Assembly (NCBI GenBank): GCA_944358355.1
Contig: CALVQY010000012.1
Span: 1-40,983 of the forward strand
Origin: an uncultured Bacilli bacterium
GTDB taxonomy: Bacteria; Bacillota_I; Bacilli_A; RF39; UBA660
Reading direction: 5' to 3'
DNA length: 40,983 nt
In this document: piece by piece, positions 871 to 1,113 of the stretch
Position numbering within the stretch: the first letter of the stretch is position 1
Layout of the letters: each line of letters begins with the position of its first letter
Notes under the pieces: model-generated
Told to the model about the DNA's origin: nothing
What the model saw: only the letters and a program-made list of their open reading frames with translations
Databases searched by the model: none
Program-made: the position numbers and the translations under genes

Positions 871-1113
871 ATGGATGTTATGTCAGCGACAATAATTTGT
901 ATTGGAATTATGTTAGGTTTTGCCTTTCTTGGCCTTGGAATAGGTATTGGAATGATGGCTGGTAGAGTAGCTGAGGCTGTAGGAAGAAATCCAGAAACTA
1001 AAGCAGATGTTGTACACTCAGTAATGACAATTTTAATTGTGACAACTATTTTCTTGTTATTTTTGTTCTCTTTTGTCTTTTTCTTGTTATTTTTTAATCC
1101 TTTATTTGTTTAA
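871..1113 (+). CDS. F-type ATPase c-like proteolipid without the ion-binding carboxylate
   Basis: This two-helix hairpin of 80 residues is homologous to subunit c (AtpE). Helix 1 keeps the glycine ladder ([12 protein letters not shown]), and the polar loop ([11 protein letters not shown]) is typical of the family. Counting from the loop proline, the position that carries the essential Glu or Asp of helix 2 in proton- or sodium-coupled rings is threonine here (LIVTTIF). Helix 2 contains no acidic residue, nor does helix 1 beyond residue 2. A ring could still assemble, but normal ion translocation should be impossible. I chose the ATG start because AGGAG at 857-861 lies 9 bases upstream; TTG codons at 862 and 868 are less likely. 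The next gene starts 2 bases after the stop. Homology is very likely; loss of ion coupling is an inference from the missing residue. Confidence 0.88.

Follow-up and report, generated by a model that had tools for sequence, protein, structure and literature searches.

What is a rotor ring kept for once its subunits have lost their ion-binding residue? To our knowledge, the carboxylate of subunit c is regarded as universal in rotary ATPases. The window studied here (i.e. the whole 40,983-nt stretch of DNA that was analysed, from an uncultured bacterium of the RF39-type Bacilli) encodes a c-like protein with threonine in its place, and beyond this subunit, on which the first-pass annotation had been centred, we found at the locus a whole F1-like motor accompanied by surface proteins (Table 1). 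The loss of the ion site extends across several gut-bacterial orders, in which strong purifying selection acts on the F1 motor and on the fold of the ring; if true, this would mean that a rotor ring can be retained to do mechanical work once ion coupling is gone.

Table 1. Features of the F1-like operon in the window, with the basis of each assignment
Feature	Position	Strand	Basis
S2, C-terminal part	61..858	+	most loci have an S2-like ORF immediately before c
c-like rotor subunit, Thr59 replaces carboxylate	871..1113	+	80 aa; Pfam ATP-synt_C and column table
Thr59 codon, canonical essential Glu/Asp position	1045..1047	+	sequence, column table, 4bem alignment
Peripheral-stalk-like protein, apparent b-delta fusion	1116..1853	+	delta profile matched at 83.9% probability
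Alpha-like subunit with intact Walker A (GDKKTGKT) and arginine finger (SVSRLG)	1872..3230	+	PF00006, 6.8e-70
Gamma-like subunit	3223..4011	+	Pfam PF00231, 8.9e-24
Beta-like catalytic subunit; GGAGVGKT and GERSREG intact	4020..5375	+	PF00006, 1.7e-68; NCBIfam atpD above cut-off
Short epsilon-like subunit, 85 aa	5372..5629	+	mostly its place in the operon and the alignment of the family
Multi-pass membrane protein, all helices by prediction, unrelated to a	5622..6203	+	AlphaFold2 pLDDT 88.7
S3, N-terminal membrane helix and all-beta extracellular domain	6274..7002	+	AlphaFold2 pLDDT 93.4; co-occurrence
S4, giant, 3196 aa	7019..16609	+	membrane-proximal domain common to S1-S4

A rotor subunit without an ion site

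The c-like frame opens with an ATG at 871 (preceded by an AGGAG motif at 857-861) and closes with a stop at 1111-1113, and its product matches Pfam ATP-synt_C with 29.6 bits (gathering cut-off 24). Counting from the loop R39-N40-P41-E42, P41+18 is Thr59 (its codon lies within 1021-1110), which bears out the claim of the first-pass annotation that threonine, and not Glu or Asp, stands 18 residues past the loop proline; the Glu of A. woodii c2 (PDB 4bem) shares the column with Thr59 in an alignment judged by eye. The same annotation had read helix 2 as free of acidic residues and the glycine ladder and RNPE loop as retained, and both readings held: the nearest acidic residues (E42 and D46) lie at the cytoplasmic loop end, outside the membrane part of the helix, and the retained elements are evident from the Pfam match and from a column table of 79 sequences. 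Helix 1 also carries no acidic residue at the depth of Thr59.

Homologues were collected from the genome family of the window (strong match in 33/386 genomes) and from GTDB at one genome per species (80 of 234 confirmed relatives were retained), and the scores split cleanly into c-like (107-146 bits) and canonical c (at most 45). Among 79 distinct c-like homologues, position 59 is occupied by Thr (32), Ala (23), Ser (22), Met (1) or Phe (1) and never by Glu or Asp (0/79), whereas canonical c subunits have Glu there in 34/34 cases. Furthermore, the neighbouring positions have changed as well: Gln26 (31/34 canonical) is replaced in the c-like family by Ile, Val or Leu (sometimes Met or Phe), the equivalent of Thr60 by Val, Ile or Leu, and Tyr64 (34/34 canonical) by Phe, Leu, Val or Ile, while positions 54, 56, 62 and 65, small in canonical c, are mostly large aliphatics. 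As these positions bind Na+ or keep the glutamate in place in solved rings, and as the Na+-binding set (helix-1 Gln, Glu, Ser/Thr and Tyr) does not occur at c-like positions 26, 59, 60 and 64, the whole ion site, and not the carboxylate alone, is by its residue pattern gone from the c-like subunit.

On the other hand, the helix-1 glycines 12, 16, 21 and 27 are invariant in the 79 sequences (Gly23 and Gly25 nearly so), as are R39, N40, P41 and K44. The alignment of homologues that had been proposed as a check thus found a non-acidic residue fixed at the site and the glycines conserved, and a sequencing error or frameshift at Thr59 was ruled out by the same residue class in 79 sequences, including one from an isolate genome. 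A comparison of the window with its nearest relative gives a dN/dS of 0.044 for c, 0.073 for beta, 0.078 for alpha and 0.097 for gamma, so that the c-like gene is under strong purifying selection. Selection for ring assembly without ion binding, as the first-pass annotation had surmised, is therefore supported by the fixed loss, the conserved glycines and the low dN/dS of c, and fold and conservation lead us to infer that the c-like subunits would assemble into a ring. The sole acidic residue near the site among the c-like sequences is an Asp at P+17 (MIVDTVFL), beside the lost site, in two loci with identical c-like sequence (L096, from genome G404, and L168).

An F1-like operon without subunit a

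The usual gene order is S1, S2, c, b-delta-like, alpha, gamma, beta, epsilon-like, multi-pass protein, S3 and S4, and it is conserved in nearly all complete loci, across Bacilli and Clostridia. In an alternative order, S3 precedes c and gamma comes last, and in two loci (L118 and L119) S3 and S4 come right after c, with the F1 genes of the L119 genome located 12 kb further along the same contig. The contig of the window starts inside S2, and its positions 1-60 are out of the S2 frame and resemble an assembly end.

The catalytic motifs are invariant in alpha (Walker A and arginine finger, 77/77) and beta (GGAGVGKT and GER, 71/71), so that ATP hydrolysis would be expected from their intact state. 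For beta, the ATG at 4020 agrees with the starts of its homologues, and a GTG at 4008 is possible too. The epsilon-like protein matched no Pfam family above cut-off, and presumably has no C-terminal helical inhibitory domain, because about 85 aa leave no room for one. The stalk-like protein combines one N-terminal membrane helix, a coiled region and a delta-like C-terminal end (a moderate match, at the probability given in Table 1); a PDB search with its profile gave no match. In one locus (L035:4812-6161, genome G052) an in-frame TAA interrupts beta while the other operon genes are open, as a consequence of either sequencing error or recent damage. Several alpha-like frames (L034:4888-9138 on the minus strand, L137, L141, L149, L152 and L168) have long C-terminal extensions, reaching 830-1,417 aa as compared to the usual ~450; in L034 the tail repeats a low-complexity pattern (K-P-S / I-G-P-T-L type). 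Such extensions are possibly a cytoplasmic scaffold, and may be compared with the extension that the G1 beta subunit of M. mobile carries at its N-terminus.

No c-like locus contains a subunit a or a separate delta, and PF00119 (subunit a) is absent from all five carriers in genome family f1 (G000, G011, G041, G052 and G086). A multi-pass membrane protein of about 180-190 aa is encoded near c in nearly all loci, and was considered as a disguised subunit a; this candidate was rejected, given a profile comparison of 1.4% and the lack of any significant fold match (none at E<=0.001; best E 1.0, TM-score 0.36-0.40). Its helices hold no conserved charged residue, and no acidic residue is conserved elsewhere in the operon that could stand in for the lost one. 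The objection that another helix might supply the carboxylate, which the first-pass annotation had raised against itself, thus found no candidate, with subunit a absent and the multi-pass protein devoid of conserved charge.

Surface proteins encoded with the motor

The four surface proteins differ in size across loci (S1 ~1,700-2,100 aa, S2 ~430-730 aa, S3 ~240 aa, S4 long), and each starts with a single membrane helix and carries a beta-rich part on the outer side of the membrane (the S2 homologue in L033, for instance, has 469 aa and one N-terminal membrane helix). When their first 300 residues were compared, hhalign gave probabilities of 78-98% in 6/6 pairs, against at most 7.5% for reversed-sequence controls; by these profile matches, S1-S4 have a membrane-proximal beta domain in common. 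The distal parts consist of FN3-like, collagen-like or glycine-rich stretches, and S4 of the window combines its N-terminal membrane helix with a glycine-rich ALK/LTK-type domain and a weak FN3-like match. In two Clostridia loci (L122:3-7963 and L099:2-7985), S1 carries collagen-like G-X-Y repeats and S2 carries polyglycine-II-like GG-X repeats; in Bacilli carriers, FN3-like stretches take the place of these repeats. A fold search with S3 gave no meaningful match.

Among 90 relatives, S3 was found in 5/5 genomes with the c-like gene and in 0/85 of the others, and it was also present in 22/22 c-like genomes tested from the family of the window; in the one from another family (G089), the S3 search matched the N-terminus of S1. 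As S3 co-occurs with the c-like gene, which is the strongest evidence in this respect, we argue that the motor and the surface proteins form one system.

Distribution and phylogenetic position

Carriers of the c-like gene belong to RF39-type Bacilli, Lachnospiraceae, Family XIII and Oscillospiraceae. Most of them are metagenome assemblies, but the family is not an assembly artefact, since the isolate Kineothrix alysoides (L122) carries the gene. Within 15 carrier genomes, the 11 larger ones (mostly Clostridia) also hold a canonical c, and the 4 small ones hold the c-like gene only. Clostridia carriers retain canonical c for ion coupling and Bacilli carriers are without it; the canonical c of Kineothrix has its Glu. 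The machine therefore does not stand in for an ATP synthase. The genome of the window has no other c subunit and no subunit a; a second, canonical ATP synthase was looked for in it and rejected, as neither c nor a was found and a weak match on contig C16 has internal stops.

The c-like family is monophyletic (support 100) in both the alpha and the beta tree, and is placed apart from canonical F1 and from the mycoplasma Type 3 ATPases. In the beta tree rooted on alpha, Type 3 groups with locus L037 (87) and both join the c-like family weakly (41), whereas in the alpha tree Type 3 does not group with it; the family may share an origin with mycoplasma Type 3, which beta weakly favours and alpha does not, but long-branch attraction is a likely cause of the grouping in beta. 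Profiles of gamma, epsilon and the stalk protein gave no match between the family and Type 3 (3-4 sequences each), and the curated NCBIfam Type 2/3 models stay below cut-off for alpha (391.5 vs 600 and 303.4 vs 520) and beta (408.4 vs 570 and 397.5 vs 850). L037 (G089:C4, from another family of the class) represents the most divergent cluster, has Phe at the site and may be informative; another contig of that assembly encodes a canonical subunit a whose gene has three TGA codons (G089:C25:5646-6257), perhaps a contaminating mycoplasma-like sequence.

Comparison with known rotary ATPases

With the F1Fo ATP synthase (Type 1) the machine shares alpha, beta, gamma, an epsilon-like subunit, c and a putative stalk with a delta-like end, together with the c hairpin, its glycine ladder and the R-N/Q-P loop; it differs in that subunit a and the ion site of c are missing, epsilon is short, b and delta are apparently fused and the operon includes surface proteins. 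The hybrid ring of A. woodii is a natural ring in which some hairpins (c1) are without an ion site, while its other subunits bind Na+ and a subunit a is present. In the family described here, by contrast, every known copy is without the site; the A. woodii ring (PDB 4bem) is at the same time the best PDB sequence match of the c-like protein.

In function, the nearest parallels are the G1-ATPase of mycoplasmas (Type 2), the proposed driver of gliding in M. mobile (PMC11864180), and the Type 3 F1-like X0 ATPase (MSC_0619/MMCAP2_0575-0581; PMC3369863, PMC12994834), which is required for MIB-MIP function (PMC12994834). Both mycoplasma types likewise combine F1-like alpha, beta, gamma and epsilon with the lack of subunit a and with large membrane-anchored surface proteins, and have an effect at the surface and not ion pumping, as is probable for the present machine. 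Moreover, GliD, for which an origin as a b-delta fusion has been proposed (PMC3369863, PMC12994834, PMC11864180), resembles in this the apparent b-delta stalk protein. Published descriptions of the mycoplasma clusters list a 12-TM protein but no c subunit, whereas c is kept here, and a multi-pass protein of ~500 aa occurs only in the mycoplasma locus (L201). According to a paper of 2012 (PMC3369863), no counterpart of the F1-like non-synthase ATPases exists beyond the mycoplasmas, which the c-like family contradicts; in the open-licence papers searched, we found no description of a c-like ATPase family outside mycoplasmas. We regard it as an evenly balanced proposition that uncultured gut Bacilli and cultured Lachnospiraceae harbor rotary ATPases of a lineage not described before, whose c-ring, once an ion turbine, now serves as an electrically silent drive shaft across the membrane and turns an extracellular machine made of giant surface proteins. 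The action of a cytoplasmic F1 motor across the membrane thereby becomes testable in a cultured, non-mycoplasma bacterium.

A candidate transmembrane axle and its alternatives

We consider that the operon probably encodes an ATP-hydrolysing F1-type rotary motor that moves no ions, and whose c-ring acts as a silent axle driving or reshaping S1-S4. On this assumption, the c subunits would still form a ring bound to gamma and epsilon, the stator would consist of the b-delta-like stalk protein and probably also of the multi-pass protein, and ATP hydrolysis would turn the ring together with gamma, making it an electrically silent transmembrane axle. Torque, or a force cycle, would be passed across the membrane to the assembly of S1-S4 outside the cell, the stalks of which (FN3, collagen-like, polyglycine or glycine-rich) may be driven for adhesion, surface movement or substrate handling. 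The coupling of motor to surface is suggested by operon conservation, by co-occurrence and by analogy, and a surface role is probably to be favoured over ion pumping because the ion site is lost and large surface proteins are a constant companion.

In falling order of likelihood, the possible alternatives are a ring that serves as a static anchor, a complex that exports proteins and an ion coupling that persists in cryptic form. If the ring were a static membrane anchor, the F1-like ATPase would regulate or assemble S1-S4 conformationally, without continuous rotation. The genetic evidence (operon and S3 co-occurrence) fits this equally well, the mycoplasma Type 3 ATPase has been proposed to energise conformational change (PMC12994834) and any torque partner outside the membrane is putative; nevertheless, a mere anchor would not require the b-delta-like stalk, gamma and conserved ring-type c that the operon has retained, and we hold this reading to be unlikely. 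The ring might instead form or gate a pore through which surface proteins are secreted or assembled with F1 energy, in line with the relatedness of F1-type ATPases to type III export ATPases (NCBIfam matches) and with protein translocation having been raised as a role for mycoplasma X0 (PMC3369863). Such an exporter seems more doubtful still, since S1-S4 have ordinary N-terminal membrane anchors, the tight glycine ladder is kept with large Leu/Phe gained and no polar lumen, and no substrate-delivery or export-gate proteins were noticed in the cluster.

Cryptic ion coupling, either by a carboxylate of another subunit or by a Thr/Ser hydroxyl site moving past the multi-pass protein, could appeal to the Thr or Ser found at the site in 54/79 sequences, to the near-constant presence of a multi-pass membrane protein and to the one sequence with Asp at P+17. 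It is, however, improbable in view of the Ala in 23 sequences (with Met and Phe also occurring), the hydrophobic equivalents of Gln26, Thr60 and Tyr64, the absence of subunit a and a multi-pass protein with neither conserved charge nor an a-like fold. That the operon is a decaying, non-functional remnant of an ATP synthase would agree with a genome-reduced lineage, the loss of subunit a, the patchy spread (33/386 family genomes) and the stop in beta of L035, but it is very hard to reconcile with dN/dS values of 0.04-0.10, invariant catalytic motifs, an operon conserved in two classes and its position beside canonical c in large Clostridia genomes, and we attach hardly any weight to it.

Other genes of the window

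Directly after S4, the window encodes a D,D- or L,D-carboxypeptidase with a membrane anchor (VanY/LdcB type; 16731-17870), followed by a membrane-anchored 600-aa protein (18038-19840) whose N-terminus looks TasA/camelysin-like by eye and has no NCBIfam match. Further along (26551-27145) lies a gene pair that resembles a RelB-RelE/YafQ toxin-antitoxin system.
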